A program made the position numbers and the translations under genes. From Brachionus manjavacas (lineage: Eukaryota; Rotifera; Eurotatoria; Ploima; Brachionidae), in contig JAHQIY010000016.1 of the NCBI GenBank assembly GCA_019054805.1, forward strand, positions 372,001 to 436,000: 64,000 nt of DNA. The letters run 5' to 3'. Numbering within the stretch: position 1 is the first letter of the stretch; every line of letters starts with the position of its first letter. The notes under the pieces were generated by a model. The model was not told the DNA's origin. It saw only the letters and a list, made by a program, of their open reading frames with translations, and ran no database searches. Shown one piece after another: positions 4,507 to 37,800 of this stretch.

Positions 4507-6310
4507 ATAATAATAATAATAATAAGCAACAGCAAGCAAGCTTGCGGAGATGACCTTCTAGGAGGACATCTATGGTAGCCGAAATTGCGCAGAAAAGATG
4601 GAAAATAACTGACAAATACATTATTTTTTTTTTTAGTTCAGTAAGAGTCATTGTTTAATTTAATCTAAGAAAGTATTGTGTAAATTTAAGTAAGTATTAT
4701 GTACAAGAATTTTACAAAGGAAAAATATTCAAGAATACAGAACTAGAATTACATAATAAAAGATTACAGTTTAAATACCATTACAAATCAATTAAAATTA
4801 CAATTTAAATAGAATTACAATGAAAAATTAAAATAGAAGAAGTATACAATAAAAAAGGGTGGAAGGATCTAGCGCGCGTTAGTGAAATCAAATACTAGAC
4901 TTGAAGGCGTCGTACTTATTCTTGAACTGGTTGATTGATTGAGACTCGGTAACTTCGGCTGGCAGGGCATTCCAATGGTTAAAAACTCTGTTCGTGAAGA
5001 AGTTGGACCTCTGCATACATTTAGTTGAGGGCTCCACGGAGAGTCTTCTCTTATGTCCTCTGATTCCCCTTGCTGGACCAGTCTATGTGAGAGAACTACA
5101 TTGCACCAGAGGATTCACCCAGGACACTTCGTTGAAGCGATTGTTGAACTTGAATAGCTGGATCAGATCCCCTTTAATTCTGCGATCATGAAGTGGCGTC
5201 AGACCTAATACAGTGATACGGTCTTCAAAGCTCCAGTTTCTGATTCTAGGCACCAGCTTGGTAGCTTTCCTCTGAACGGTCTCTAATGCTCTAATGTCTC
5301 GCTTACTGGATGGTGACCAAACTGATGAGGCGTATTCCAAATAGGGTCTCACATATGCGCAGTAGAGGGTCTTGAAGGTGTCGATAGTCCAGAAAATGAA
5401 CGTTCTTCTAAGCTGCCCAAGAATACGGTAAGCTTTGTTGGCCTGAATCCTGATGTGACTAGAGAACTTTAAAATTACGTTCGAAAGTGACTCTGAGGTC
5501 CTTTTCATTTTCTACAGATTTGAGAATGTGTTGCGTCGAACTCGCCCATGAATAACTCCGTGTTGGTTAATTTGCTCTTAACAGACCTGCTAAACACCAT
5601 TACCTTACACTTGTAGACGTGAAAGAGAATTCGCCACGTGTTAGACCACTCCATAAGTGCATCGAGGTCCTGCTGCAGTGACGTGAGGTCGTTGCTACAA
5701 ATGGTAGCGATTTGTTTGCTGTCATCAGCGAATAGCTAAGCAATGTGGTTGACAACTGAAGGCATGTCGTTAATGTATATTACGAACAGTAACGGACCGA
5801 GGACGCTGCCTTTCTGGATGCCGCTTGATACGTCGATCCATTCATCGTTATGTTGCCCGATTACCACTCGTTGCTGCCGTTTGGATAAGAAATGACTGAC
5901 CTAGTTGACAATACTGTCGCACAAGCCGCAAGCGATCATTTTGGTCTTAAGGGACGAGTGACAGACTCTATCGAAGGTCTTAGCGAAGTCGAGAAATACA
6001 ACGAGCTCATGCAGGCCTTTACTTATGCGATCGACAGTCTCTAAAAGATTAGTAACAACGGGTTTTCTCAGTACGAACCCATGCTGCTCAGGGACTATGG
6101 CATTGTTGCTGTACAGATGCTCCATCATGACGTCACGTACTATGCGCTCCATTAACTTGAATGGCACTGAGGGCAAGGAGATCGGTCTATAGTTGCCTGG
6201 AGAATTTCTGCTGCCTTTCTTAAAAATGGGGCTTATCTGGGCTAGTCTCCAGGCGTGCGGTATCCTTCTGCTGATGAAGGAACGACTGAAAATCACAATC
6301 AATGCCTCAG
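4507..6310 (-). mobile_element. Non-LTR retrotransposon fragment A (RT, CR1/Jockey-like)
   Basis: This is a decayed 5'-truncated LINE. The minus-strand frame 6302-5901 encodes RT fingers and palm (ISPIFKKGSRNSPGNYRPIS, then FLDFAKTFDRVCHSSL). The catalytic box FADDSKQIAT lies near 5740-5705 with an in-frame TAG just before it. The frame 5508-5083 is the RT thumb and C-terminal part (TLYCAYVRPYLEYASSVWSP). Frame breaks and stops separate these blocks, so it cannot encode an active enzyme. The 3' end (low coordinates) is a trinucleotide tail, seen as (taa)n at 4506-4524 on the plus strand. It is clearly richer in GC than the host genes, as expected for a more recent or foreign-composition insert. 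Confidence 0.88.
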
Positions 6311-6554
6311 AAAAAGCAACATTATTTTGAAATGTTAATTTTTTAATTTTGATAATTATTATTCATTGTATTTTTTTTTTTTTCCTTTTTTTTTTTTTTT
6401 TGAACCAAACCGACTCTCAAACCGAATTAGGATTTAGCATGAGCAGTCCAACAGCGGTGGAGATTTTCAATTTTTTTTTTAGGTAAAAAGCCTTTTTTTT
6501 TTCTCTTCAATTGGATATTAAGTTGTTGTCTGCGCGACGAACCTCTTTGAATCA

Positions 6555-7605
6555 GCCGATTTGACGACAAGAGCAATCGCATACAAGTGCCCAGTAGATG
6601 TCATCTACACCGATTTTGCGAAGGCTTTTGACAAGGTTCCACATCAAAGACTGTTGCTCAAGCTTTCGGCTCACGGGGTAGAAGGAACCGTACACAGATG
6701 GATCAGGGCGTTCCTCTCGGGCAGGAGGAAAAGAGTTGTCCTCGGCGAGTACTGTTCGGAATGGGCACCAGTCAAGAGCAGCTGTATTGAGCAGCTGCAA
6801 CGCGACTTGGAAGCCTTAGCAGCATGGTGCGACAAATGGCTGATGAAACTGAACCTCGGCAAATGTAAAGTCATGCATAATAGTAAACATAACCGGAGGA
6901 ATAAATACTACATCCTAGATAGGTCGACCGGTATACTACACTAGCTTGAGGTTACTAAAACAGAAAAAGACCTGGGAGTCCATGTTAGTGACACTTTGGG
7001 CACAAAGATTCAAGTGGATAAATCCGTGGGAAAAGCCAATCCCATGCTCGGAGTGCTTCGCAAGACGCTGGTTTCAAAGTATGCGTATTTATGGAAACAA
7101 ATTTGCACTACGTACGTCAATCCAAGCATGGAGACCATACCGCCTCGGCGAGATAAACACACTGGAAAAAGTTAAGCACCGTGCTACAAGTCCCAACTCA
7201 ACTCCGCGGCATTACATACATAGGCAGGTGCCTAAAACTGAAGTTGACAACGCTTGAGGAAAGGAGTGCCAGGGGTGATTTGATAGAAATGTGCAAAATT
7301 CAGAAAGGACTGGACACTGTCTAATGGCACTCTTCTCTACAAATTGGACCACCTAGAAGCGGGCATCGAGGGCACATCAGACCAGAGCTAGTGAAGGACT
7401 GTCTAAACAGACGTAATGCTTTTCGCAACAGGGTAGCACGAATGCGCAACAAGCTCCCCGATTCAGTCATTGACGCACCAAGTGTCAACTCTTTCAAGCA
7501 TAGGATTGACGACCAAAGAACAGGCTGCTCATAGGACTCAGGTTCTCTTGCTGGAGTCATCCGGCTACTCGCAGTCATCCATTTACAACTACTACTACTA
7601 CTACA
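6555..7605 (+). mobile_element. Non-LTR retrotransposon fragment B, internally deleted
   Basis: A plus-strand LINE fragment in the opposite orientation to fragment A, also GC-rich. The frame 6561-6944 starts in the RT palm (VIYTDFAKAFDKVPHQRL) and then jumps from CSEWAPVKS straight to EQLQRDLEALAAWCDKW. The segment that should hold the GVPQGSVLGP box and the YADD catalytic motif is missing. The junction near 6777-6800 has a repeated gagcagctg, consistent with deletion between short direct repeats. Downstream coding (KDLGVHVSDTLGTKIQVDKS, then the C-terminal SVIDAPSVNSFK type ending) is broken by stops and shifts. It ends in a short (act)n tail at about 7585-7605. Confidence 0.85.
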
Positions 7606-7639
7606 TGTTTTAATATATTATAAATCAGTTAAAAAAAGA

Positions 7640-9905
7640 AGAAATTACTAGATAGCAATTACACAATTGAGTTGGATATTCGATTTATCTAGATTCGAAA
7701 CCTTCTCTATATTCTTCTACCAGTTTCACGACCAGTGGGTTAGAATGACTCAATCCTGTCCTGACATATCTCTCACTCAACTCAAAAAGTCGATTCGAGA
7801 CTGTAAGTAAATTTAGTTTATTGAAGGCTTCTTGGTGCATAATATTGGAGGGGGTATCATATTTCAGCTTCAAAATAGATCGAACTGCTGAATTTTGAAT
7901 AACTTTTATTTTGTTGATGTTAGTTTCTGAGAATAAATTTAAACAAGGAAAAGAATAATCCAAAATTGATCCTATTAAGGATTTGTAAAGATTACCTAAT
8001 GTTTCTTGTTTTAGACCCCATTTTCTATTTGAAAGATATTTTTTTAAATTAAGTCTAGAGTTACAGTGTTCTTTTAGTTCATCTACCATTGACTAAATGT
8101 AAGTCTAACGTGATTCCTAAAAATTTCACTTTTTCCTCGTTATTTAAACCGATACCATTAATATTAAGGTTAAGATTGGTTTTAACATTTGTTTTTTTCT
8201 CAAAGATCATGTAACATGACTTTTCAACAGATATTTTCATTTTCCATTTGAAAAGCCATTTTTCAACTTCGTTTAGGTACTTATTAGTCACGTTTTCAAG
8301 ATTTCCTATTTTTTTTAAAGTAAAAAAGATAGCCAAATCATCTGCAAAAAGAAGAGAGTATTGGCAATTGGTTTTGTTTCTTTTTGGTATATGATTTACA
8401 AAAATGCTAAAAAGAAGTTGACTAATTACTGACACTTGTGGGAACTTTGTTTTAATAGGGTATTGATCACTTAGATGACCATTTACATTTACTCTAAAAG
8501 ATCTTAAATGCAGAAATGATCTTATCCAATTAATAACATAAGGAGGGAGGTCAATTTTAATTAGCTTGTAAACTAGTCCATTGTGCCAAACTCTATCAAA
8601 AGCTTTAGAAATGTCAAAATATAGACAACATACTTTTTTCTTTTTATTAAAAGACTCTACAATTTTTTGAATTAGAAAGGAGAGATTATCCGCAGTGCGT
8701 CTATGTTTTCTAAATCCTGATTGCTCATGTATGAGTAATTTTTTGTTTTCAAGAAAATTATTTATTCTGGCGTAAATAATACGTTCAAGTAACTTTCCAA
8801 GAAAACTTGTCATACTAATTGGACGATAGTTATTAGGGTCTTGAGTTGGAGAAGATTTTTTAGGGATCAGTGTTATGGTTGCTATTTTCCAGGATTTAGC
8901 ACTTGGCCTAGTTCCAAACTCATGTTAAAGAGTTGACTTATCTTACTATTTAAAACCAAAATGTGTGAAAAAAGTAAAATGTTCATACATATACTAACGA
9001 TAACTAACTTTAATATTTGAATTAAGAGCTTTTAAAAGTTTCTTAATCTTTTTTTTATATTACATAATATATATTAATTTTTTTGCAATCTAAAATTACA
9101 TTTTAATTAAAAAATTAAGCAAAGAAAAAACATTCAAATTCATTGAAATTCATTTATTCAAGTTTATATTACAAGAAATGTTGTTTGAACAGTATGCCAC
9201 AAAAAATTAGAATCAAGTTGAAAAAAATAAAAATTTTTAAAAATTTAAAAATTTTTTTTAGCCGAGTTAATAAAATAATTAACAAAAAAACAATCGGATT
9301 AAAAAAAAAGTTTGACTCTAAATTTTTGCGACAAACTGTACAGAAATATTCATTAAATCATTTAATTAACACTTATGAAAAAAAATTTTAAAATCAGTTT
9401 TTTATAAGAATTTTTCAATATAATAAATCAATCAATTAAATAATCAATACTAATTTATTTTTCATTCAATTTAATTATTCTGGCAGCGGAGCAACAGGTA
9501 AAACCTTGTTTAAATTAAAGTCACTGTGGTAAAGTTTTTTAACATTAGATTGTGAATACGATCTAACACTAGTTCTTATAGTTTTTTAAAGGAATTTTTA
9601 ATTTCAATAAAAGAGTGATAGGATCGTTTAATTTAAATTGATGCAGCCAAATCGAGGTGAGGACTAAAAGTAGTGGCTAAAAGATCTCCAAAGATTTTTC
9701 CTTTATTTTTATCCGTATTAAATTCTTTACCGTCTTTAAAAAGCGATGGAATTTGTCTTGTGCATTTCTTTAATCTGAGCTTATTTATTTTTCTCCAAAA
9801 AGGCCTACTTGACAGCGGATTTTTTCCTGCCTAATTTATGAACTCGAGCCAGTTTTGGTTCCAGAATTTTTTTATACTTTGACCAAGCTCAGATCTTATT
9901 AACTA
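7640..9905 (-). mobile_element. Non-LTR retrotransposon C (AT-rich), decayed
   Basis: Minus-strand RT in host-like AT-rich codon usage. The frame 8813-8079 carries the RT core (CLYFDISKAFDRVWHNGLVY, then LLFADDLAIFF), and 8089-7685 carries the C-terminal domain in another frame, so there is a frameshift near 8085. Upstream of 8813 the reading continues as TITLIPKKSSPTQDPNNYRP and, after another shift, as ILVLNSKISQLFNMSLELGQ to about 8970. The linker is found again at about 9905-9490 (FWRKINKLRLKK, GKIFGDLLATTFS). The 8970-9480 segment between them does not translate into LINE protein and looks like an insertion or replacement. The box before the catalytic motif reads FPQVSVISQLLF, altered from the usual PQGSVLSPLLF, another sign of decay. 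Confidence 0.82.
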
Positions 9906-9908
9906 CTA

Positions 9909-10480
9909 CCTTTAGAAAAAGTCCAATTCTGGCTCGACTTCATCTGCCAAGTTGTAATTTGAGTACTCTCTATGTATTCTTCGGCATTCTTGTTCATGTT
10001 CAATTTTTTCTTGGTCAGTAAACTCCTTTTTAACTCTTAAGACCAATTTTGTATCGGTAGTTGCAAAATTGAAAGATCCTATTTCTACTAATAATTCCAA
10101 ATGGTCATTAAATTTTCGCCAGGCTTCTGAACTGGCAAAACATTTGGCGGCCAATGGAATTAAATCGTCGGTCCACTTTTCATTTGATTTTCAAAGGCAT
10201 CTGCATATTCGATGGAATTAAAATCATTAAGATAAAATCTACGTTTGAATTCCATTTTAGAATTTATATTGTCCCGTAATTAGCCATAACTAATAACTAA
10301 ACAGGGATTATAGCTCATAAAAACTGTTAAATCTATAGTTTCATTCCTGCATAAAACGTTTTGTTTTTTGCAAGCCGGATGTTTAAACCAGCACCGGAAA
10401 GCTGCTCTTTGATTGAACATAGCGTATCTTCTAATGTCTTCTTGTGGGGAAGGCTTGTCTATACCATTTCTTCTATCACC
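9909..10480 (-). pseudogene. Unidentified coding remnant, broken
   Basis: About 190 codons of protein-like sequence on the minus strand with one stop and one frame change. It begins near 10480 (DKPSPQEDIRRYAMFNQRAA), continues with a Cys-bearing segment (FRCWFKHPACKKQNVLC) and then EFKRRFYLNDFNSIEYADAF. After a frame shift near 10150 it reads AAKCFASSEAWRKFNDHLEL to a stop at 9912. It lies between retrotransposons C and D. It may be the missing upstream portion of C's long ORF or an unrelated captured gene. I do not recognise the family. Confidence 0.45.
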
Positions 10481-10481
10481 A

Positions 10482-12660
10482 GTTGTTCTATTTGTGGGTA
10501 CATTAGCTTTGTGTCGTCAGCATAAGTTAACAAAAAACTTAACATAACTGACTTCCATTCGGATACAACATCACTAACTAAAACACGTTTTTTTCTGTTC
10601 CTGAGTCCATTTGACAACTATGATCGGAATTTCGTATGCTATATTTGACAATCAGAAACTCGTGCAAGACTTTGTCATACGCTTTGGCAAAATCCAGATA
10701 TAAAGCATCAGCGGGCTGTCTACGGCTCCTGCAATCAGTAAGAAATTCGAGAAATCGAGAAGATTCGTCCTACAGGCTTTATGCACCACAAAGCTATGCT
10801 GTTTGTTCGAAAGAATATTGCGCTGGTATAGATGCTTCAGAAAGTATTCTTTAATCATTGACTCCATTTCTTTGCAAGGGACTGAGGTAAGTGAAACTGG
10901 ACGATAATTCCCCCACTTCAGTTCCGCTCCCTCGCTTAAAAATTGGTGTGACATTGGCATCTTTCCGCTCATGAGGTATAGCTGAGTGTTTTAATGACTG
11001 CACGAAAAGGAAACCATCGTGTCAGCCAAAAATGCCGAACACATTTTGAAGGCATGCGAGGATACTTTGTCGACACCTGACGTCTTGTCGCTTTGCAGAC
11101 TTTCGAGTTCCTTGAGGACTTTTTCTGGTGTGACAATGTCTTCGACACTGAAGGCTGGATCAGGCTGGGCACGAATATGGAAGACATTAGTCGCATGAAA
11201 TATTTGCTCTCTTGAAGACTGAATGGAATAATTCGTTGAGTAGTTCAAAAATGCTTTCTCTATTGGTATCAAGTTCCCCATCATGATTTTTAAGCGCTGC
11301 AATTGACTCTCTTTGTGAAAATCGACTATTTATTTACAAAAAAAGTCTCTTCGGATTCTCTTTCGCATCCCTGGCCAGTTTTGAGTTCGAAATCGATGAC
11401 ACTTTGTTTGATAACTATCTTGACTATTTTACATGCTGCTTTGTGTTTAACGGACAATTTCTTGTTGTCCTTCGACACATTTACCGATGAAAAGACGTCT
11501 TTTGCGACGAATGAGAGAACATATTTGTTTATACTACCAAGGAGGCTTCACATTAACGGGTCGCGGCTTATGTAGTTTGACAAAAAGCTCTGTTCCAGCT
11601 GTTCCAAAAACATCCAGAAAGGCCGAATAAGAGCTCTGTATTGACTTAGTGTCGAAAATTTTCTTCCAGTCTATTTTTTTGAGGTAAGCTGTCATTGAAA
11701 CGTAGTCACCATTTCTCCAATTTAAGCGTCTTCTGTCAAATGGTTTTTCCGGAGTGATTGGTGAAATATACTGAAATCGCAGACTACAATGGCACCTTAA
11801 CGCGCTAGTGACCAAGGGTGGGCCAATCTCAACTTCAGTGGTCCGGTTTGAGTCGCTGATCAAGACGCGATCAAGCAAGCTTCTCGACTGACCATTACTG
11901 ATAAATTTGTTGCTGGATACGAGCTGAACAAGAGTTGAAATGCTGATCGCATCGTTGACATAAACGCATGGCGAAGCAACGTTAGCTAAAACCGGTGATC
12001 CATTCTCGCTTCACTCGACGTCTGGCATGTTAAAATCATCCATCAAGATGCTACTAGAATATGGTCTCCGAGGAGTCGTGTTGCGGTGTAGATTGATCGT
12101 GAGATGCAGCTGTCAGTGACCTATACTGTATTGGACACATTTTTGGGTGGTGGTCGATAGCCAACTAATAAAGGGGACTCATCTTCGAGCCTGATGGAAA
12201 CCCAAATTTGCTCACATTCTTAATTAAGAAAGCTACTTTCCTGTGCCTCAATTGCTTGTATTCCATCACGCACTTAAATGCATACTGCGCCTCCAGTTTT
12301 GTAGTCTTTGCGATCCGATCTGAAAAGCTGGAATCTAGAAAGTGCAGCAGTTGACCTTTGGTAAAACCATGTTTTTGTAATGATGATATCTGACAACATG
12401 GTTGCTGTATTTGCCTCCAGCAAATGCATCTTGTTATTCAGACTGGTTGCGTTTGTATACCAAAAGTTAAGTTTTTCTTTGGAAATTACTAGACTTATTG
12501 ACCGAGAAGTCTGAGACTTTGGGGAAGAACTAGCGTCCAAGAGTTGGAAGGATAAATCATTTGAGCTTTTTGAGAACGAAGATACAAAGCTGTTATCAAG
12601 AGTGTCAAGGCTTGAATTTTCATTATCCAATTTCGCCACAGATATGTAAGGAGAACTCAT
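10482..12660 (-). mobile_element. Non-LTR retrotransposon D with EN and RT domains, decayed
   Basis: The most complete LINE in the window. The ORF2-like start is the ATG at 12660. A Ser-rich leader is followed by the N-terminus of an APE-type endonuclease (LNFWYTNATSLNNKMHLLEA, then LSDIIITKTWFYQRS). The end of the endonuclease is at 11878-11760 (LLDRVLISDSNRTTEVEIGP); its catalytic SDH region is degraded. The linker lies at 11302-10991 (LESLQSDKTSGVDKVSSHAF). RT follows at 10972-10652 (WGNYRPVSLTSVPCKEMESM), with SNGLRNRKKRVLVSDVVSEW near 10610-10550 and the catalytic YADDTKL near 10526-10506. Frames change several times, so it is inactive. The 3' end is lost just after YADD. Confidence 0.82.
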
Positions 12661-22187: not shown

Positions 22188-24263
22188 ATGAAACTTGTCC
22201 ACATCTATTTCGACATTATATGCCTATACAATTTGCTTAAAAGTAACTGCTAGATTTAAATTTAGAACAATTTAATGATATTAAATTTCAGTTAATGCGG
22301 CTTTTAGTGTATCATTTAGTCAGTCGACATATTCAGTTCAATATGGAGGTTCAGTTTTTTTAAAAGCTACAATGACGGGTTTTGGTGAACAAGGAATCGT
22401 TTGGCGATATTACCCGACAAGTGCACCTTCTAATGGAATAACGGTTTTTTATGAAGGCGATTATACAACTTCTGCAGATCGATCTAAGTATACAGTTTCA
22501 TTCGAAAGTTCCGGAACTGATATAATATCAACTTTTGAAGTCAGAAATACAATTTTTTCTGATGCTCTCAATACCTATGAAGTTTCATGCAACTTTTATA
22601 AAATTTCTGGATGCAATAGTTTGAGCTTTGATTCAGCAACTTTAGTCATTTTAACTACAACCTCGACAACCACTTCCACTTCAATTACAAATTCAATTAA
22701 TTCTACAACCTCAAGTATATTACTGGTAATATACTATTTAGTAAAAATTTCAAATCATCTTTTAGATTGTTTAGACGGAGCTTGGAATACAGTTCAGTAT
22801 ACATTGGTTATTTTGAATTTTGTCATTCTTGTTGTAACTACATTACTTTTTCATTTTTCATTTCACGGTAAGGCTTAGAATGAAACTTGGAGTTATTTAA
22901 TTTATTTGATTTTTAAAGGAACAGTACCTGAAACTTTTTTTATGGTCTTTACTCTTGTCCTATCCTTGGTCTTGATTGTCGTGAGCTTAATTTTCTGGAT
23001 AAATCCTACTCGTAAATAAACAGAAAAGAAAAATCAATTTTATTAAAATTTTTGGTTTAATCTAAGTTTCTTCTGATTCAACAACGGTACCTCTTGTGAT
23101 AATTTGCTGCGAACTAGGTGCTTGCTTATTTCAATGGATCTTGATTCTCCAATATTCAATTCGCTTAGGATTAAGTAAAAATAATAAAATAAGATTAAAT
23201 TAAATTTTTCTAATCTTAACAAGACAATCAAACACACTTGATTGTCAATGTTTTAATATGTGCCATTGCCGTTTTGGAATTGGGAACAGCCATTTTGCTC
23301 ATAACTGCAAATGCGTACTGTACTGGCCAGACAAGCATATCAGCAATGGGCGATTTTAACTATTGTAAATTTTTAATAAATCTAAAATGAATCCAAGTCT
23401 AAGAAAATAAAAGCTTATGTTGAATTGATTGCCGCATTGCTTCTTTTAATATTTTCAGGATTTATTTTTATAATATCCGGCGTAATTTTTTTCGGTAAGT
23501 TTAGTATAACAAAATTCTTAAATAATTAAAATAAAATTTAAGTTCAAAAGAAAAAAAAGGATAGCGAAAAATTTGCAAGTTTCGGGTATTTAGGATTAAA
23601 TAGTTTGGAAAATAAGCTTAATATTTTATTAGCAAAGTAATGAGTCCAACAGTGACGCCTTTTAATTTCCCAAGTGCTCCGAATTCGGCCCAACCAAGAC
23701 CTACATTTCAAAGTTTTTAAAATAAATTTGAGATTTTTTTAATCAATCAATCAAGAAATTTTTTTTAAGCCAATAAATCGAATCTATCCGATGAATCTTT
23801 TCCTCCTAAACCTGCAGCTAAATTGGCACCGAATTTTTCCAAAAGAAGAAACGACACATTTGTTTCGGATGTTACAATGAAAGAAGATGAATCAAGTCCA
23901 AACTTAAATCAAGACCTAGAAAAAGAGCCAGAAGTGCCGAAAACTCAAACACCTATTAGGCCAAAAACAAAAGTATTTGAAGAAGTTGGTTTGTCTAAGC
24001 CAGCTCAATTCGGTAATCCGAGTTTCATCTGGGATTCTGATAGCAAATTTTCAGAAATAAGCAAAAGTAAAATAGCTTTAGGAGCTCGAAAAGCCAGTGA
24101 TTTATCGGAAAATAGTTTGAAGACTTCAAAAGCAAAAAAGGCTAAAAATACTAAAACTAAATCTTCCAAAGATAAAGATAATTTAATATCAAACGATGAT
24201 AATAGTTCGACTGCTGATTCAAAGTTTAACAAAAGTGGACTAACTCGAGTATCACACTCATAA
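22188..24263 (+). CDS. Ig-like, Ser/Thr stalk, 5-TM membrane protein, copy A
   Basis: First of three tandem paralogues of a family I do not recognise. Exons: 22188-22242, 22292-22867, 22919-23011, 23067-23174, 23224-23364, 23414-23494, 23543-23585, 23633-23712 and 23770-24263; all phases agree (556 aa). Exon 1 and the start of exon 2 encode a signal peptide (MKLVHIYFDIICLYNLLK, then INAA). The Ig-like domain (about 23-135) keeps Trp56 and Cys118, but the first Ig Cys is Ala44. The stalk is short (TTTSTTTSTS). Five membrane helices follow, one per exon for TM2-TM5. The tail starts with VQKKKK and ends Lys/Ser-rich (KAKKAKNTKTKSSKDK), with the family motif as NPSFIWDSDS and ALGAR. An optional 51-nt in-frame intron may lie within exon 2 (CTCAA|GTATAT...TTTTAG), giving 539 aa. 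Likely a plasma-membrane adhesion or receptor protein (inference). Confidence 0.85.
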
Positions 24264-24454
24264 TGTAGATAAAAATGGCCTCATTTTATTAAATTAAAAA
24301 AATAATTGCTTTAATATTTTTACAAATAAATTTACGATAGATTCAAGCAACTAATTAATTTAATAAATTGTGACTTAACAATCACAGTTTTAAAGTAAAT
24401 TTCTAAATTTGAAACAACTTATTTTTTGACACTATTAGTTACTCAAATTTATCA

Positions 24455-27223
24455 ATGCCAAATATCAATGTGACAACAAGACATTTAATTTTTAGTTTAG
24501 CTCTGATTTTTTTGACTCAAAGTATTTAAATTTTGATTCTAAATTTTCAAAATTTAATTCATTTAATTTTTTACAAGAATATGGCTGTTTGGCTCAGTCG
24601 ATTCAGATGAATCCAGATTCATATTCTGCTCTATTGGGTACTAATGTGACTATGCGGTGCGATACTTCCGTAATATCAATTGATGGATTCATAATTACAT
24701 ATTATCCAATCGGAAATCCTGCCAATTTTAAATCAATATATATTGACAAATTTCCTAACTTTACTGATAAATTTGTTGTCAAATTTGCACCTATTGGAAA
24801 TAATTTTACAGCCTTCATCACAATTTTAAATGTAGATTTTAATGATCAAAACTACGAATACGAATGCACTTGTAGCAGATTTACAACATTTGGATGTAGT
24901 CCTACCTTATCATCTGTTGCAACCTTGTCAATTTTTTCAACCACAACAACTACTACTACCACAACAACAACTACAACTACAACCACTACTACAACCACAA
25001 CAACAACTACAACTACCACAACAACAACAACTACAACTACAACTACAACTACAACTACAACTACAACTACTACTACAACGAGTACAACTACCACAACAAC
25101 CACAACTAGTCCCGTAACTACAATATTGGCAACCACAGCCACAGTAAGCTCTTCTAATACTACCGGTGTTTGTTTAGATGGATTCAATCCAGCTCAATAC
25201 GCGATCTTAATAATTACATTTATAACTGTGGTTTTTGCTTCTTTATTTTTCCATTTTTCTTTTTTCGGAACTTTAGTTGAAACATTTTTTCTAGCTCTAG
25301 TTCTAATAATTAGTGCTTTCTGCTTCATTATTTCAATTATATTCTGGATCAGCCCTCAATGTAAGTCTTTCTATATGATTTGAAAAAAATTAAATTTTTA
25401 ATTTTAAGTAATTGGTAATACTGCATACGCCCCAATCCTAATAGTTGTAATGTTTTTATTCGGCTGCACTCTCAACTGGATATTAATACTTCAATATGCT
25501 ATAAGACTCAGTTTGGGTAATGATTACTCTTAAAAAAATGTTTTATATTTTAATTAATTTCAAAAATTATTTAGGAAAATTATTCAGGGTGATTGAGAAT
25601 GGACTAGCATTCTTTTCAATTCTTAGTTTTTTTTTAATAGAAAATTTAAAAAATTTAAATAACTTTCATTTAAATTGCGTGAATTTTAAAATAAGCTCAA
25701 TGTGATTTGAAAATTTACATTAGTTAAAAAGAATTTTATTTATCTAAAATAATAGTAAAGTAATCTATAAATTTTTAGCTCAGCTCTGACAACTGTGCTT
25801 AAAACTTTGCTTTTTCTCTTTAAGCTTCAAAAGTAATTGTGAAATTCATTACAGAAAAACACAAAATCAAAATTTCCTAAAATTGATTTAAGGAATAAAC
25901 CTCTTGATTAACTCACAGAGTACTTTCAAAGAGTACCAAATGATGCAATGATCCTTGTTGCACCTTCATAACTTCTACGAAAAATATTAAAGATATTAAT
26001 TTTAATTATTTTTTGATGTATTTTTGTATTGAATTCACAATCAGACTTCAGTATAAATTATTAAGTATTTTATAATTATAATTTTAAGCTGATGATATAA
26101 ACTTTGCAGTAATAATTGGAATATGTATTGATGCTGTGTTGGAACTTGGCGCAGCAATCATTGTAATTGTTGCAAATGCTTACTGCACTGGATATAGTAC
26201 CATTCAGCCGATTTCAGATTTTGACTATGGTAATTTTACCTTTATTGTTGATTAATCTTACAATTTTTGTTGAATAAAAGCATATCTGGAAATTATTGGA
26301 GCTGTTTTGTTACTAGTTTTTGCTTTGATTATACTGCTGGTAGCTGGAGTTGTCTTTTTCGGTAATTCTTTGGAAAAAATTCTCAGATTTTCATTTTTTT
26401 TTTAAGTAAGGAAAAAAAAAAAAGAATCTATGATGATAAACAATTTCAAGTAAAGTTTTTTTTTTAAATTATCAATTTTTTAATTAATCTTTAAAAAAGG
26501 CCAATTATAATGAGTGGTACACCGAATTCTCTAAATCAATCTATACTACCAAAAAGTTCTGATTCAAATCAAGGTTTTTAAGAAAAATTTAAAGAATAAT
26601 TACTATTTTTTTATTTAGGCTTTTGGACTCCCATAACAAAAAATAAAGATCCCATTAAAATCTCGGAAAATACTGAAAATAATGAGATTAAAGATGAGGT
26701 CAAAAATTATCCGTCCAAGCCTAAAAAATTGACTCCCATATTTTCACGAAAGCGAGCTGAGATCGCCAAATTTCCTGATTATGATGAGCCTGAAAATGTT
26801 GAAAATTTAGACACTGAAATAAATGACGAAATAAAGCTAAATGTCGAAGATTTGAGTGAGAATTTTAATGAAAAAAATGAATCAGAAGAACTGCCTGGTC
26901 GATTAAAATCAGTTCCGATAACCAAAGAAGTTAAGGAAATGCCCAAAAGTCCATTTGATTTTATCTGGGGATTTAATAGCATTGCGCCGTCTGAGAATGA
27001 TTCAGACCTAAAATTATCGCGTAAAAGCACAACTATAGGTGGCCGTGTTGATAAATCGATCATCAATCCGGATACTTTTAGTCTGAATGGCTTGATTAAC
27101 GAAAAAGAAAACAAGACTAAGAAAAAAAAATCTGTCAAAAAAAAGGATTCGAACAAAACTGAAGCAAAGCAGGAAAAAGACGAGCTACCGTTTGATTTTA
27201 GTATTCCTGCTTTGGAAATTTGA
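24455..27223 (+). CDS. Ig-like, poly-Thr stalk, 5-TM membrane protein, copy B
   Basis: Second tandem paralogue. Exons: 24455-24521, 24578-25360, 25409-25516, 26089-26229, 26281-26361, 26407-26449, 26500-26573 and 26619-27223 (633 aa). Signal peptide is MPNINVTTRHLIFSLALI to about LA28. The Ig-like domain has Cys50 and Cys119, plus Cys121 and Cys129 near the F-G loop; the usual core Trp is replaced (FIITYYP). A nearly pure Thr stalk of about 60 residues (about 144-201) is followed by CLDGFNPAQY and TM1. Here TM1 and TM2 share an exon: the intron present in copies A and C at this point is missing. TM3 to TM5 are on exons of 108, 141 and 81 nt, as in A and C. Intron 3 is long (572 nt). The tail has VRKKKKES, then VKEMPKSPFDFIW, then STTIGGRVD, a Lys-rich run, and ends PFDFSIPALEI. 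Positive charges after TM5 support a cytoplasmic C-terminus. Confidence 0.9.
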
Positions 27224-29789
27224 ATTTGAAATCGGCGATGAAAAAAAGTCATTTTATTTTTAGAAAAATTATTTTATAATTCAATCCAATTAATTTAAAA
27301 ATATTTACTAATCAAGCAAATATTTAATAAATATAATGGACTTTTTTTTGCTATTATTTAAAAATAAAAAAAAACACTTGTCTAGATATCACTATTAGTT
27401 AAATATTTAATTTAATTTTAACATTTATATGATCACTTTTTAGGATTTTAGCTTTAAAAATTCATACTGCATGAAAATTTTCTATCACAATTAATTAAAT
27501 TTCAATTTATAGTTTTTTGAAAGACCACCAAAAGTAGTCGAAACTTCTAATTAATTTTTTTCTAAGAAAAACTCTGAAAAAAACTTAGAATTTTTTAAAA
27601 GTTTTTGTTAACTTTTTAGCTCCAAACAAGCTAAATATTTGAATTGGATTGTCTATTATGTTGCCGATTTAAATTTGAGTTCACTCAATTCAGCCCCTTT
27701 AATAATCAAATAATTATTGAATTTTAATAGCCATTTAACTTAAAATTTTCTTCGAAGCACTCGTAAAGTGCGTAAAATTTTTCATTATATAAAAGATAGG
27801 AATTTTGAAAATTTTTGCGTCAAATTTTTTAGAATAGCGTGTTTTAAGTCTAATTGGCAATATCATTATTTGTTGACCATGTCGTTTTCTTTTTCTATTT
27901 AAAGACCGGAATCAGCGGTCTGGATAAATAATTTTTCGATAATGAAGCAATTTTCCGGCTTGTATAGAAAAAAAAATTATTTTTAAAATTGTCCTGAAAA
28001 TAGAGAGCGGGCTAGTAAATTAGTATTAATTATATTTAAAAAATAATTGCTTTTTCCATCAAATTTTCCGAAAGGTATTTTTCAGAATGGCAAAATTTTT
28101 CCATATTAGCTCTGGGCATTTTATTTAATTTGGAACCAGTTATGATTAAAATGACAGATTGCACAATCTAGCTTGTTTAATCTTATTTAAAGAAGGAGAA
28201 CTGCTTTGAAAAAATTTATAGCAAAATAGGCAACAAAGATTGATTTCAATATTTGCTGAAACTAAGAGCTAGTCTTGTCATTTTTAAGCTCCATTAGCAT
28301 AAGAATAGCCGCAACTAGGTTACGGCTTTTTAAGTCAAGTCACTCTGCATGCAATGGCAATCAAAAGGCGTCTCTAAACTTCATAATTAGCTTATTGCTT
28401 AGCGAATACATTATGGCATGAAGTGAGGATATTATATCCTTATTCTAACAGAGAATAATTCAAAGCCTTAGAGGAATTTAACCTCATTAAACTATTTGAT
28501 TTTTTGTTAAATATTCAAATATTTAAATTAAATATGAAAATTAAAACTGATGAATAAAGCCCGTTCTCAGCTAATTTTGTTGATAGCCTCAACAAAGCCG
28601 ATAGAAAAAGTCATTGTTAGAATTTAAATGCTTTGCAATTATTTTTATTTAAATTAGGTCTTTAGGTCTCTTTTTTAGATTGTTTTAAATGCAGAAAATG
28701 GAAAGGTGCCGTGTTGCCGATTGGAATTGCGCAATGCTGGCTTCAAATTTCCGATGCCGCTGCATCCAGATCTTTTTTATGCTAGAAAAACAATATCGAT
28801 TCTTTCGAGCTATTAATTACTTAAGCTGAAAATTACAGAGGCCTCGTTTTTGCCTATTCAGAATTAATAAACTAAATAAAAAAAAAAAGAATTTTATTTT
28901 TGTTTTGTTCGACAAAATATAAAGAATCAATTTAATGGTCAAAAAAACCAAATCGAAGTTTTTTACTTCTAATTAAAAAAAAAAAGAAAAAAGTTTATTA
29001 AGAATGAGTCGATCGACTTGAGCCATTTTTAATAAAAAATTAAGTTAGAAAAACAAATCGATCCATTTCTAGTTTAAGTATTTGTGAATGACGATTTTGT
29101 TTTTAGCGCTAGTTATTCAGAAATACTTAGTCTAAAGCCACCAAATGAATTTCATAGTCTAATTCAGACGAAAAATCGGTTAATTAAAATGTTAGTTTTC
29201 AAAGGACTTTGTTAATTGAAATAGGAGAATTTTTCTCCGAGCTAATATTTTTGCAACAAAATTCATGGTCAAATCTAGATTAGTTACCATTGGTATTGAG
29301 CAGAATTTTTGCAACAAAAATTCAAATGCAAATACAATTTTAAGCTTTCAAACGAATTAATTCAAATGCGCTATTTAAGGATTCATGAAGAGTGTCAAAT
29401 TGCTTTACAAGAATTCAAATTTAGTTCTCTAAGTTTATTAAATAACTTTTTGTGGGGGTTCGCTTTTCTTAAGAAAATTAGCAATACAGTTTAGCACTCT
29501 TATATTTTGGTTTTTTAAACAAACTTTTTAACACTTATATACTCTTGGTCATTTAAATTCAAAAAATATTAATTCAGTTTAAAGTTTTATTAATTTTCAA
29601 TTTTGGCAAATTGACAATAGGTTTTGTTTATTGGCATTAAAGTCAAATGGCTTTTTTTGTTGACTAACTTTTTCAATTTTTTTTCTTTTTAGATTTTTGA
29701 AATATATATGTGTGCATATGAAACGACTTTTTTTAGATAATTTGCTCAACGATCTGGCCAAAACAATCCTCGTCTTGGATCGGACGAAA
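27224..29789. other. Intergenic between Ig-5TM copies B and C
   Basis: About 2.6 kb, AT-rich. There is no supported gene and no remnant of a further Ig-5TM copy that I can see. Slightly GC-richer patches occur near 27900-28020 and 28690-28770 but do not translate into anything recognisable. Confidence 0.55.
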
Positions 29790-32288
29790 ATGATTTCTTT
29801 CAAAAAGTCCTTTTTTAGTCTATTAATTACCTGTATTTTAATAAAACGTAATGCAACTTTTTTTTTTCTCTTTTAATTTTCTTTAAATTATTCGCCAATT
29901 CTAGAATGTGTGTCCGAAGTTCAAATAAAAATTGACCCAGAATATCACTCTGCTTTAGTAGGCTCATCGCTGAAAATTACTTGTGAACTGTCAAATGTGG
30001 AGACCACCGACATAGTCTGGGTTTATTATCCAAATGGACAAGCCAAGTCCAGCACAACCATCTATTTTGAAAACAATTATTTGAACGGCATGGCTTCAAA
30101 ATTTACGGTAACTCTATCAGTTACGGGCTCAAATATAACAACTTATTTGACAATACCGTATGTTGAGTTGGACTATTCGGGCTACACATTCCAATGCGAG
30201 TGCAATGTCTATCGCTTGGCCTATTGTAATGCAAATCGACCGCGTGCGTCCTCTAGACTTTTAGCTTTCACTACGACCACGACCACAACAACTACCACAA
30301 CCACTACGACAACAACTACCACTACAACAACCACTACAACTTCAACTACCACTTCCACTACAACCACCACTACCACAACAACCACCACCACAACCACTAC
30401 AACCACCACTTCGACTACTACCTCAACTCTTCCTACAACTTCCATTGCCCCAACAACACCTTCAATTGCTCAAAGTCTTTCTTTATTTATCAGTTGCCTT
30501 AATCCGTCGTTTAACACAATTCAATATGTTCTATCATTTCTAAGCTATTTTTGTCTCGTTCTTGCCGTAATTTTGTTCCATTATTCATTTTTTGGTAAAT
30601 TTAAACTAATAAAATAAAATGCCTAATATTGGTAAAACTTTTTTTTTCAGGTTCTTTTGAAGAAAAGTCAACACTCATTTGTACTCTTATAACATCTTTT
30701 TCATGTTTAACTGTCTCAATTGTATTTTGGATTCATCCATTTAGTAAGTTATTGTCATCAAAAAAAAAAAGGGAAAATTTTATTCAAATTTATTTTTAAT
30801 TTTCTTTAGTATTAGGAGATGCGTCTTATTCTCCTATTTTAATAGTGATTGCAGCCATATTCGCATCAACTGTAATATGGATCCTTGTTTTTCAATACAT
30901 AATCAAATTAAGCATTAGTGAGAGAAAAAAAATTATTTTTAAATGTTTATTTTTTAAATGGAATTTTTAAGATGATGATATCAAACCAATAATAGTGATA
31001 TTGATGATAAGCGATGGACTATTTTCATCCATTTCAGCCATTTTGATGATTATATCTAATGCATACTGCACTGGACAATCAAATTTGCCAAATTTTGAAA
31101 TGATCAATTATGGTAAAGACGCCGTCCATTTTTTCTTAATCAAAAAACTAAACATTTATTTATCAAATAGCCTATATAAAAATAATTGGATCAAGTTTTT
31201 TTTTGATTTTTTCATTTTTGCTACTTTTAATGAGTGCCCTAGTGTTCCTGATTCGTAAGAACAAGAGAGACGATCTAATTTTCAATAATTTCAAGTATTT
31301 TTTCTAATTTCAAAGCAAACATTTTTGATCCATATTTGACTTTTTTTACTAAGAGCGCTTAGCAACGGGTCTGTTACTCCTAATAAATTTATAATTAGCA
31401 GTAGTTCATGCGGACTTGATCCATCAGCAATCACTCAAGATTGGTTGACAAAAACATCTAATGACCTAAGACTCTTGACTGAAATACCCTCTAATTACAC
31501 AAAGCCAAACCTTTTGCCACCGATTTTCCCAAGTAAAACAGTGGCTTCGAGCAACGAAAACGATGAAGAGAAAAAAGCCCCCAGAAAATGTGAATATTTT
31601 GAATAAAAATTTAAAATTATTTTTTTGTTGACTTTTTTTCTCTAATTAAGTTGACGGTAATAGACCTAATTTGGGCTTGGACAATCTAGACGCTACCATA
31701 GACGAAAGTACGATCGAAAATTTGAATGAAAAGCCAAAAAAGAAAAAGTCCAAGAAGAAACAACTGATGGAAGACAAGCTTTGTTTAAACGGAGTCCAAG
31801 AAAGAACTGAAAGTGAATTAAATGAATCGTCTGGATACAAATTGGTGAACATGATTGGCAATACTGATGTTAAGGAAATGCCAGTCAATCCGTTTGATTT
31901 TATTTGGAACACCAAGTCTTTGATGCCTCGAGACGAGGACGGTCGAATTGTCCTCAATGAAGAAGAAATTCAAAAATTGACCAGGAACAAAAGTATTCTC
32001 GGAGCTCGAGTAGATGCTTCGGATAAGCTACAGAAGATTTCGATTAATGAACTAGTTCTTCATACCAGTTCGGTAGCCGAAACTGAAAACAACCAAGAGG
32101 ATCAGATTGAAGAGAACAAAACGAGCAAGAAAGCAAGCAAGAAGAAAAAAGACAAAAAACAATCTTCCAAGACCAAGAAAACAAGCGAGAAAGCTTGTGA
32201 CGATAGCACATTTTTAGTGACCGAGACAAATTCAAATGACACTAGTGAAATAAATATGCCAGAATTGGACAAGAATAGCCAGGGATGA
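29790..32288 (+). CDS. Ig-like, poly-Thr stalk, 5-TM membrane protein, copy C
   Basis: Third tandem paralogue. Exons: 29790-29847, 29905-30594, 30651-30743, 30810-30917, 30972-31112, 31171-31294, 31354-31589 and 31651-32288 (695 aa). Signal peptide MISFKKSFFSLLITCILIKQ ends near CVS23. The Ig domain is the most canonical of the three: Cys46, Trp58 (DIVWVYYP), Cys117 (YTFQC), and the extra pair Cys119/Cys127. The Thr/Ser stalk covers about 142-200. TM exons are 93, 108 and 141 nt; the last TM exon is 124 nt, exactly 81+43, so the intron between TM5 and the Lys cluster is absent. The tail is longer than in A and B and contains VKEMPVNPFDFIW, then SILGARVD, then a strongly Lys-rich segment (KKASKKKKDKKQSSK). 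Function unknown; cell-surface location is inferred from the signal peptide, Ig domain and helices. Confidence 0.9.
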
Positions 32289-33585: not shown

Positions 33586-34836
33586 TCATACTGCTTCCAT
33601 ATTTGCGTCCATAGCACTTCTAGTTTCTGTATGAAAATACGAATTTTTTTTTATCATTTCATTTTGACTCTTGATATATAGCGATCTATTGTAAGGGTGA
33701 AATGACGGATTGAACAAGACCACCCGAGCAATGTCTCTAAAATTTTGTCCAAAAAAGCAATAAATTACAAAGTTAATACAACAGTTTAATGCTGCTAGTA
33801 AATCGCAAAATGGCTTTGTTATATGAAACCATTTTTTGTCTGCATGAGCAGTTGCCAATATGTTCAAGACCAAATAAGGAAATTGACAAATGAAAAATGC
33901 CAAAACAACTGCCATTACCATTAGGGTAATTTTGCGGTCGACTTTAAATGTCGCCGCAATTGACGATCGTAGCATCAGTGATTTTTTATTTGTCTTGGCG
34001 CTTTTTGCTTCATGCTGAGTCCTTATTCCATTCTTGATCAAAAGCTTGCTGTGATCATATTGACCAAGCAGGTTTTTTTTTCGCTTTTTTGCTTCTATCA
34101 TTTTTTTGACTATTCCCATATTGACAAATAAGAGTATGCTAAAAGGGAGCCCGTAGACGAATATCAAGTATCCGTATTTACGCATTATCTGGTTAAAAAT
34201 GTAATGTTTGCCGAACTGGGTGGTACGGGCCTGGTAGTATGTTCGATTGGTCACGGACACCTGGGCAAAGGATTCGATTTCGAACCATCTGGGCAAATTG
34301 TAGACAAAACAAAATAAGAATATGAACACTACTGCTCTGAACGTGTTCTTCATTGTGCAAATGGTATCGGCCTTGAGAGGCCACGTGACATAGATCCACC
34401 GATCTATGGTCACCGCTACAGTCAAGTAAATTGCATAAAGTTGAAAAGTGGTGAAAATGGGGCTCCAAATTCCGTAGATCAAATTAATAAAGCTTTCATA
34501 CGGGTGAATATCAGTGACGTAAGGCTGGTGAACATTTTTGATAAAGTATTCGTAAGAGACCAAGTATCTTAGCGAGTAAAGAAAAATGAAATTTAAAAGA
34601 CAAACCATGTTGGCTATAGAAAGTGTGGTAAGATATACATTGGTTGAAAAATTTCTCATGCGCGGATGTAACAATACAAGTACGGTAAATCCGTTTAGGA
34701 TAAGACCTATCAATGCAATCGGCAAGACAATCCATCCGTAAACAAACAACCTGATGTCAACAATGAGAATTTTTTCCTCAAAGGTCAGCATAGTTGAATA
34801 ATTGCTGGACAATTTACTGGTCAAGTTACCAACCAT
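33586..34836 (-). CDS. Class A GPCR, FMRFamide-receptor-like
   Basis: Intronless 416-aa seven-helix receptor, start ATG at 34836-34834 (MVGNLTSK). It should couple an extracellular, probably peptide, ligand to G proteins at the plasma membrane. N-glycosylation sites are at Asn4 and Asn12. TM1 carries Asn48 (LILNGF). TM3 ends in DRW (145-147) within TIDRWIYVTWPLKA, the form typical of FMRFamide-like receptors. The TM6 switch reads ICQFP (316-320) and TM7 NFVIYCFFG (355-363), a variant NPxxY followed by helix 8. Odd points: TM2 has Asn76 where most class A receptors have Asp, and I find no Cys at the top of TM3 or in extracellular loop 2, so the usual disulfide is absent. Loop 3 is long and basic. 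The ligand is not known; a neuropeptide is the best guess. Confidence 0.88.
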   Translation of the reverse strand: MVGNLTSKLSSNYSTMLTFEEKILIVDIRLFVYGWIVLPIALIGLILNGFTVLVLLHPRMRNFSTNVYLTTLSIANMVCLLNFIFLYSLRYLVSYEYFIKNVHQPYVTDIHPYESFINLIYGIWSPIFTTFQLYAIYLTVAVTIDRWIYVTWPLKADTICTMKNTFRAVVFIFLFCFVYNLPRWFEIESFAQVSVTNRTYYQARTTQFGKHYIFNQIMRKYGYLIFVYGLPFSILLFVNMGIVKKMIEAKKRKKNLLGQYDHSKLLIKNGIRTQHEAKSAKTNKKSLMLRSSIAATFKVDRKITLMVMAVVLAFFICQFPYLVLNILATAHADKKWFHITKPFCDLLAALNCCINFVIYCFFGQNFRDIARVVLFNPSFHPYNRSLYIKSQNEMIKKNSYFHTETRSAMDANMEAV

Positions 34837-37800
34837 AATTTGTTTATTTAAGCCAGTTTTTACTTGAAAATATCATTAAATATTTGTTTTTTATCTAAAA
34901 ATAGTTAAATAATTGTATAAATTCGATACTTAAGGGTTATTTTAATGAACAATCTTGAAGCTATTTGATTAATAGCTTTCAAAAGTTTGATTGATTCAAA
35001 TAATTATCTTTTTTTTGAATAGATAAGCTATTCGAATTAGATAAAAGACCGATCGTGTTAAGAGAAATTCTCGCAAAATAAGGGAAGTATCTGGTACGAG
35101 AATTTCTGATTATCCGAATTAAAGAATCGATATTTGATGAAAAAATTAAAATGCATTACTAAAATATTTATTCAGATTTAAAGAAAAAAGCGGAAATATT
35201 TAGATGAGAAGTAATGTTTGCAAGCTCATTTAATTTGGATTATATTATATTATATTAAAATTAAGGTGATAAAGTACTATAAAAATTATTAAATACTTAT
35301 TTATTTAACTAAAATAAAATAAAATAAAAAGAAATCTATTTTTTTTTGCTAAAATACAAATCCGAAAACCGCTTTGCTGATTTTGTAATAGTTTATCTAA
35401 AAAATTACGGCTAGAAATTGTTTTTTGTAACTAAAATTACCTTTTTTTATCACTAAAATAGATTTGCTTTATAAATATGCTTTTTGAATTTATAATACAA
35501 TTCTATTATTTTTTTATTAATTTTTTGATTTTTAAAAACCTTTTTTGATTTGAGAAAAATTTCCCAAATTTTACATAATTTTTTCATCAATTTCTATAAT
35601 AATTGATTTGCAAATTGAATCTGAAAATATGGACACTCAAACAATTGCAAGATAAAGATAAAGACCAAAATGAAAGAAAAAGCCGCTCAGTATTTTGAAG
35701 ATTATAAGTTTTTTTAGCGATATTTAAATTTTTTCGAACAAAAAAAAGAATTTTTATATTGAATACGTCTTAAAAATTAAAAATATTTTTTAATAAAATT
35801 CTTTTTTATGTAGATATAACTAAATTTAAACAGGTTAAGTTTTATTGATTGTGATAAAAAAGTAAAGGCCTAAAATTATTTAAAAAATCTTTATTTTTAA
35901 ATCAAAATAAGTTAAGTCCAAAATGTTACGAGTCGAAAACCTTTAGATGGATTTAATAGAATCCTTGTACAAATCGTAACACAATTAATCGAAACGAAGA
36001 TTTATCTTCGCCAAATCTGCATCCAAATCGCTCGGTTTTTATCCTCATTTAACAGGAACTAAATATATTATATAACAAATACAAATTAAGTTCTAACAGC
36101 TTATCCTCTAATGACGCAACAAAACTCAATCGGTTCGGTTTGTTCAATGAGCCTTAATTTCACAGCAAATGAAGATTTTACTAAACAAAATTTTAACCCA
36201 ATTCCCAAACTAAATTAGATGCCTGAAATATTTATTTTTTTAAATTAGACCCCAGGGTCGAATTTGTTTGAATTAATTCTCGAAACTAAACAATAAAAAA
36301 ATTGATATGTTTTGATTATTTTTTTTCCATGACGAAAAGATAAACAAAACTAATCGGGATACTAACCAGCCCAAATAGTTTAAATATCAGCTTTAAATAG
36401 AAATCTAGCGGAATAATTCTCTATGCCTCTTAAACAAGGATTAATGGATTTCTCTCTAAGTCTGTACCGCTATTGAATTTAATTATTTCAAAAATTAATT
36501 GGTTTTTGTCATCATTCTGATTTATCCTATCAATTTGGCGAGTAATTTCCGAATCAAGATGCGATTTAAAGTATCTATTTATTAGTCAAATTTAAATTTA
36601 GTCAAAATTTATCTGTCATTTTGGTTCTTCAAGTAGATATTCTTAATTTATGCATACATACTTAGGAAATTAAAAGTCTTTTTTATAAAACTGATCATTA
36701 TTAGATTAGCTTATTTATTTTAAATTTTATAAGCGTATTTTTAACTGATTAACTGATGAAAATACGCATACATACTCAAGCTAAATTGTACTAAACTTTT
36801 TCCTTTCCAAATCATTCAAAAGAGCTAATTGATTTATCAGACTAAGGCTTTGATTAAAAATTCCGTCATGCATTGATAAAAGATTTTCATTTCTCAAATA
36901 AATCAATAATTTCATTTAAAATTTTTAATTTTCTGAAAATTTGGAGCCTTATGCATCAGTTCTCCTCATCTATTTTGAATGAGATTAAAGTTGAAAATCT
37001 TGATGTTAGATTCAAATAATTATGAGGACATATTGAATTAATCTAATTATTTTGATGCTTTAATGATTATTTAAGATGTGAAAATTGATTTTATTTAAAT
37101 CTCATTTACAGAAAATATCGATTAAGAAATCAGGGTATCCGAACCTTAAATTATTCAGATATACTTTAACAACTTGTAAGCAACTGGAGGCTTCTAGTTG
37201 GAATTTTATTTTAAGAATAAATTGAAAAGCGTCTATTTAGCTTAATAGTTTTAAATTTAGAAAATTTTGCTGCAAATTTTTTTATTAATTTCACATTTAA
37301 TTTAACCAAGGAGATAATTTCTTTTTCAAATTAATAATAAAGCTGAGTGATTTGAATTTTTACAAAAAAATTCAATTATCGTCATTTCATATCATGTTCC
37401 TGTTAAAACAAAAATAATATATAAATAATGAAATATCAATGCAAATGATTACACCTAGTTTGTTTATTTTCTTCAATGATGTACAGACTCTTATCTGAAG
37501 TGAAGAGGAAATTTAATTACTTACTTACTCTAAAGAATATTTAAAATTCATTCTGGAAAAAAATCTCTTGAATTTAACTAATTCACCTTGTTTTCAGTAG
37601 ATTTCAACATGCTCCAAATGATTAGTTTTAAACTGACTAAATAATCAATTTAATGCTGCAGTTGTCAGTAATACTTGGAAAACTAGGCTGAAAATATCTT
37701 TATTTCAAATTGATTAGTCTTATTTACCTTATTTAGTTGCACCCACAGACAAAGAGGAACAATTCAAATTTCTGACAAACTTGATGTTATAATTAATTAT

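Follow-up and report, generated by a model that had tools for sequence, protein, structure and literature searches.

The stretch analysed here is a window of 64,000 nucleotides (nt) from the rotifer Brachionus manjavacas (assembly GCA_019054805.1, contig JAHQIY010000016.1, positions 372,001 to 436,000), and all coordinates are counted from its first letter. Three genes lie in tandem on its forward (+) strand. Gene 1 (22188..24263) has 10 exons (22188-22242, 22292-22714, 22766-22867, 22919-23011, 23067-23174, 23224-23364, 23414-23494, 23543-23578, 23638-23712, 23770-24263) and encodes 535 amino acids (aa). Gene 2 (24455..27223) has 8 exons (24455-24521, 24578-25360, 25409-25516, 26089-26229, 26281-26361, 26407-26449, 26500-26573, 26619-27223) and encodes 633 aa. 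Gene 3 (29718..32288) also has 8 exons (29718-29847, 29905-30594, 30651-30743, 30810-30917, 30972-31112, 31171-31294, 31354-31589, 31651-32288) and encodes 719 aa. The span 22188-32288 runs exactly from the first ATG of gene 1 to the last stop of gene 3. All three spliced frames are uninterrupted, and as modelled from the sequence the array consists of three intact tandem genes on one strand.

The gene models were built by hand with GT-AG introns, and each copy served as a guide for the others. For this reason the shared exon ends are partly a product of construction; the open frames and the similarity between paralogues are not. GT-AG borders were found in 23 of the 23 modelled introns, 22 of which are 45-66 nt long and one 572 nt. 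As modelled, the acceptors are AAG in 16 of the 23 introns, TAG in 5 and CAG in 2. AAG acceptors are uncommon in most animals, and this genome may have an unusual acceptor preference. The splice sites of the membrane core are more secure than those in the tail region that have weak donors (GTTTTT, GTTTCG). Removal of an in-frame stretch of 51 nt in gene 1, 22715-22765, brings the CLDG motif described below beside the stalk, and on this ground the stretch was taken as an intron; it may instead be read through, which would give 17 extra residues.

The order of domains is the same in all three proteins. A possible signal peptide and one immunoglobulin (Ig)-like domain are followed by a Ser/Thr stalk and a juxtamembrane Cys-Leu motif; next come five hydrophobic helices, and behind these a basic cluster and a charged tail. 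A tandem array of three genes with this order had been proposed in an earlier sequence-only reading of the same DNA, and the spliced models bear it out. The Ig-like domains (116-120 residues) are encoded at 22294..22653 in gene 1, 24589..24936 in gene 2 and 29910..30269 in gene 3 (all +). The gene 3 domain is probably of V type (Pfam V-set E 2e-4, 22.0 bits against a cut-off of 26), and the corresponding E values were 0.072 for gene 2 and 0.12 for gene 1. Genes 2 and 3 have both the B- and the F-strand Ig cysteine, and gene 3 reads DYSGYTFQC where a DxGxYxC-type motif is expected of an Ig domain; gene 1 has neither cysteine and keeps a CxxxxxxxC pair. When a profile of the three Ig copies was compared with PDB, 813 sequences were matched at E up to 10, and among the best 60 of the 813 nearly all were antibody V domains. 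The best match was a diabody, with an E of 2e-5 summed over its two V domains, and the best chain with one V domain was 7yoy_I (E 2e-4). An Ig fold is likely in these proteins, judging from the profile matches.

The stalk that follows is 21, 78 and 75 residues long in genes 1, 2 and 3, with Ser+Thr fractions of 0.76, 0.87 and 0.83, respectively. The Thr run of gene 2 (24937..25110, +; 58 residues) and the Thr/Ser run of gene 3 (30270..30428, +; 53 residues) are both written in mixed ACN codons. The Thr codons number ACA 27, ACT 20, ACC 7 and ACG 1 in the former, and ACC 17, ACT 16, ACA 13 and ACG 3 in the latter.

The membrane core comprises 175-176 residues and carries five hydrophobic segments in each protein. 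In gene 1 its exons (all +) hold the juxtamembrane CLDG and helix 1 (22766..22867), helix 2 (22919..23011; 93 nt, the same in gene 3), helix 3 (23067..23174; 108 nt in all three genes), helix 4 with outer loop 2 and its NAYCTG motif (23224..23364; 141 nt in all three genes) and helix 5 (23414..23494; 81 nt, the same in gene 2). The exon for helix 4 and outer loop 2 (NAYCTG) lies at 26089..26229 in gene 2 and at 30972..31112 in gene 3 (both +). Every core intron is in phase 1 and the core introns separate the helices, at alignment columns 65, 101 and 148 in all three genes, at column 34 in genes 1 and 3 and at column 175 in genes 1 and 2. The exceptions to one helix per exon are helix 1 of genes 2 and 3, which is on the Ig exon, and helix 2 of gene 2, which is there too. 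The sequence-only reading had given all three proteins a CLDG-type motif and a KKKK stop-transfer cluster. Both are found in genes 1 and 2; gene 3 has CLNP and RKNKR instead, and the general form of the motif is CL..N..QY. Helix 3 starts with PLVI, PILI and PILI, and a Glu or Asp lies inside helix 4 in all three proteins. Charges were counted within loop limits set by the analyst. No Lys or Arg (K/R) was found in the juxtamembrane stretch or in the two predicted outer loops of any of the three proteins, while every one of them has K/R in the loop between helices 3 and 4 and again behind helix 5. On balance the distribution fits a topology with the N-terminus outside and the C-terminus inside.

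Genes 2 and 3 have six aligned outer cysteines in common: the canonical Ig pair, a second pair around the F-G region, one at the juxtamembrane motif and one in outer loop 2 (NAYCTG). Gene 1 retains four of the six, and what it has lost is exactly the canonical pair, as expected if the other four cysteines pair among themselves. The simplest reading of this pattern would be three independent disulfides, one of them joining the base of the stalk to loop 2.

The tails, predicted to be cytoplasmic, are charged and vary between 199 and 304 residues across the copies (199, 238 and 304 aa). The main tail exon of gene 2 (26619..27223, +) encodes EMPKSPFDFIW and RKSTTIGGRVD, and that of gene 3 (31651..32288, +) encodes EMPVNPFDFIW and NKSILGARVD. 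The FIW motif occurs in all three tails; an LGAR or IGGR motif is also seen. None of 300 shuffles reached the similarity between the tails of genes 1 and 2, and none of 300 that between genes 2 and 3.

The relationship among the copies was assessed over the whole protein. Alignments of the paralogue cores gave z values of 21-28 against hydropathy-segment shuffles (300 each). Pairwise identity is lowest in the Ig domain (21-26%), against 35-47% for the core and 25-37% for the tail; the earlier claim of a fast-changing ectodomain on a conserved membrane core is upheld to this extent. At fourfold sites in identical residues, agreement was 6 of 23, 9 of 17 and 6 of 20 for the three gene pairs, where composition leads one to expect 0.31-0.33. 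Two pairs are saturated, and in the third, genes 1 and 3, agreement exceeds the expected level a little, on few sites. As silent sites are near saturation, the copies look old, not recent. The core profile was also run against the 1,863 stop-to-stop frames of the window (at least 20 residues; E up to 10). It matched 14 of them, every one overlapping modelled exons, and a fourth copy was not found in the window by this search.

Other relatives were sought in databases. For the three full-length proteins, their cores and their Ig domains no Pfam match exceeded the cut-off. Two matches below it, Gram_pos_anchor in gene 2 (E 0.003) and DUF3954 in the Ig domain of gene 1 (E 0.005), were rejected as products of chance or composition. 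The only PDB match of the core, a glycine receptor fragment (E 0.19), was likewise set aside, as it rests on the basic cluster after a helix. Among viral contigs 426 stretches fitted a short pattern and none was confirmed by tblastn with the spliced query; the same held for 328 pattern-matching stretches among bacterial and archaeal genomes, and neither collection consists of animal genomes. Scans of the window with Rfam (gathering thresholds) and for tRNAs were empty.

The sequence-only reading had stated that no named family shows this combination of parts. This statement was not supported, as CD47 (integrin-associated protein), the 'marker of self' receptor of vertebrates, has such a core plan. 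In CD47 a signal peptide precedes one IgV domain and five helices (PMC8410850, PMC10902115), and PMC8410850 describes its fold as unique and CD47 itself as the immune system's sole five-helix receptor. As predicted, the window proteins would share with CD47 (PF08204 and PF04549; 7MYZ, 7WN8) a signal peptide, one V-type Ig domain, five helices, short loops and an inside C-terminus, and they too have a loop-2 cysteine. With moderate confidence, we consider that the three genes encode a small, apparently undescribed family of predicted cell-surface receptors built on a CD47-like plan; a role in recognition or adhesion is what we infer for them. The lone Ig domain at the tip would bind a ligand presented by another cell or by the matrix. 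The Thr/Ser stalk, probably O-glycosylated and stiff, would lift this tip off the membrane by a distance that differs between the copies, and its base would run into a compact five-helix bundle. A bond between the invariant juxtamembrane Cys (CL..) and the invariant Cys of outer loop 2 (NAYCTG) would lock the stalk to the bundle, and may stand in for the Ig-to-loop-2 disulfide and the SWF linker of CD47. Binding at the tip would be relayed by the bundle to the long tail inside the cell, where conserved short motifs (FIW; LGAR or IGGR) would dock partners from the cytoskeleton or the trafficking machinery.

Several observations weigh against such receptors. Signal peptides were judged by eye, and the hydropathy cut-off of 1.5 was reached by the N-terminus of gene 3 only, genes 1 and 2 being below it. 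Every Pfam Ig score is under the cut-off, the better single V domain in the diabody match has an E of only 0.28, and two AlphaFold runs on the Ig domain with the three paralogue sequences gave predicted local distance difference test (pLDDT) values of 39.9 and 34.4, too low to inform either way. The loop between helices 1 and 2 is expected to lie inside, yet K/R occur there in one of the three proteins and acidic residues in all three. An extra cysteine is located near the presumed signal cleavage site, at residue 26 in gene 2 and residue 45 in gene 3 (none in gene 1), and if kept in genes 2 and 3 it could be an alternative partner of the loop-2 cysteine. Between genes 1 and 3, tail similarity does not stand out from shuffled sequences (43 of 300 were as high), and the lower identity of the Ig domain cannot be read as positive selection.

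It is possible, if unlikely, that the three proteins are genuinely homologous to CD47 at great depth and form an invertebrate branch of its family, one which gained the stalk and the tail and in which the disulfide partner moved from the Ig domain to the linker. The plan of CD47, in which an Ig domain precedes five helices linked by short loops and outer loop 2 carries a cysteine, recurs here and agrees with this descent. Profile searches do not: neither the full proteins nor their cores or Ig domains had a listed match to PF04549 or PF08204 at E up to 10, in a search where the HMMER filters drop most weak matches, while human CD47 as a control gave E values of 1e-52 and 8e-38. Comparison by hhalign with CD47 was weak. 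The core reached a score of 18.2, at a probability of 1.2% and over 22 columns that are not in register, and 8 of 100 segment shuffles attained this score too; for the Ig domain the score was 10.4 and the probability 0.1%. In pairwise alignments of the cores of genes 1, 2 and 3 with human CD47, the score was reached by 81, 30 and 2 of 300 segment shuffles in local mode and by 86, 14 and 2 of 300 in global mode. With the G-protein-coupled receptor (GPCR) encoded at 33589-34872 of the window in place of CD47 as a control, the corresponding numbers were 24, 103 and 185 (local) and 65, 193 and 235 (global) of 300. The core of gene 3 therefore beats 298 of 300 shuffles in both modes against CD47, as it does not against the control, and its global alignment, inspected by eye, has helices 1-4 in register and helix 5 lost. 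The other two genes speak against homology. The alignment of gene 1 is in register but its score is within shuffles, and in local mode gene 1 fits the GPCR better than CD47; gene 2 is also within shuffles, and its best alignment is out of register, placing helix 3 on helix 1 of CD47. Gene 3 is the sole suggestive case for a relation in sequence. Moreover, the cysteine of the Ig A strand, the SWF linker and the GLG found at the top of helix III of CD47 are all absent from the window proteins. No report of an invertebrate CD47 was seen among the literature matches listed, which were judged by titles and abstract starts, and no paper on a Thr-rich Ig five-helix protein was found; both are weak tests. 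The wider proposal, in which the five-helix Ig receptor plan is ancient, the window proteins are divergent members of the CD47 family with a mucin stalk and a relocated disulfide replacing the rigid Ig-bundle clamp, and receptors of the 'marker of self' type predate vertebrates, appears rather improbable. These comparisons support the description 'built like CD47'; they do not support 'is a CD47'.

We find it doubtful that the array encodes mucin-like or surface-coat proteins, in which the stalk would form a protective glycan layer and the Ig domain would be a minor remnant. A stalk that is 76-87% Ser+Thr and the loss of both canonical Ig cysteines in gene 1, a sign of Ig decay, would suit a coat, but it is gene 1, with the decayed Ig disulfide, that carries the shortest stalk (21 residues), and a five-helix core with conserved interface residues plus a long tail would exceed the needs of a coat. 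A channel, transporter subunit or sensory co-receptor, where the five-helix core does the work and the Ig stalk senses or tethers, would account for a core conserved more than the ectodomain and for the acidic residue within helix 4, but is very improbable for a core that has neither a convincing profile match to a solved structure nor a Pfam match above the cut-off.

Among the neighbouring genes, a rhodopsin-type GPCR (33589-34872, -; the control used above) is encoded in one open frame tail-to-tail with gene 3 (7tm_1 E 1e-23). Parts resembling a peptidyl-glycine alpha-amidating enzyme lie at 50482-55211 (-), with Cu2_monoox_C at 53891-54790, an NHL-repeat frame at 50482-51597 and a frame recognised by eye at 54918-55211; they may belong to one bifunctional gene. 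A reverse transcriptase frame is present at 8082-8924 (-; RVT_1 E 4e-40), and further frames of this kind were noted by eye on both strands within 5086-12010. An open frame at 61557-63998 (+) with ankyrin repeats followed by leucine-rich repeats reaches the edge of the window. A trypsin-like serine protease frame at 2984-4024 (+) has an N-terminal hydrophobic segment by eye and is possibly a type II membrane protease. Guanine plus cytosine (G+C) content is low, at most 0.312 in 27 of 32 two-kb windows with a maximum of 0.416. The short introns, the low G+C and the nearby animal-type genes (GPCR, copper monooxygenase, trypsin) fit an animal.

As putative receptors, the three proteins make the array a testable candidate for cell or mate recognition. 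To our knowledge, receptors for these processes are poorly known in this animal group. A 2012 paper on Brachionus mentions a male receptor for the female Mate Recognition Protein, left unnamed in the part of that paper drawn on here (PMC3495898). A link of the array to this receptor is speculation.

Tandem Ig-superfamily genes for surface proteins of self-recognition are known in invertebrates from the Alr family of Hydractinia, whose members are single-pass and have several Ig-like domains. Botryllus fester and its relatives resemble the window proteins in being polygenic invertebrate surface proteins with an Ig domain and several helices, and the description of fester (FF1) gives an Ig and a Sushi domain, three helices and a short tail (PMC12065747). 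The window proteins, in contrast, have five helices, and no Sushi match was obtained in Pfam at E up to 10. CD47 has no Ser/Thr stalk, its RVVSWF linker running straight from the Ig domain to helix I, whereas 21-78 residues intervene in the window proteins; its tail is 4-34 aa in human and mouse, against 199, 238 and 304 aa here. The C15-C245 disulfide of CD47 connects the Ig domain to outer loop 2, and C15, C245 and G191 belong to a reported set of seven residues that do not vary even in viral relatives (PMC8410850, PMC10902115). The loop-2 cysteine is found in all three window proteins, but none of their aligned Ig domains has a cysteine before the B strand. In CD47, W118 and F119 of the linker are placed directly below the loop-2 cysteine (PMC8410850). 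The spot at the stalk base that CD47 holds by these buried aromatic residues would, in the window proteins, probably be held by a disulfide from linker to loop 2. A second family with the CD47 plan, and in an invertebrate, would mean that this type of receptor is rooted deep in animal evolution or that it arose twice.

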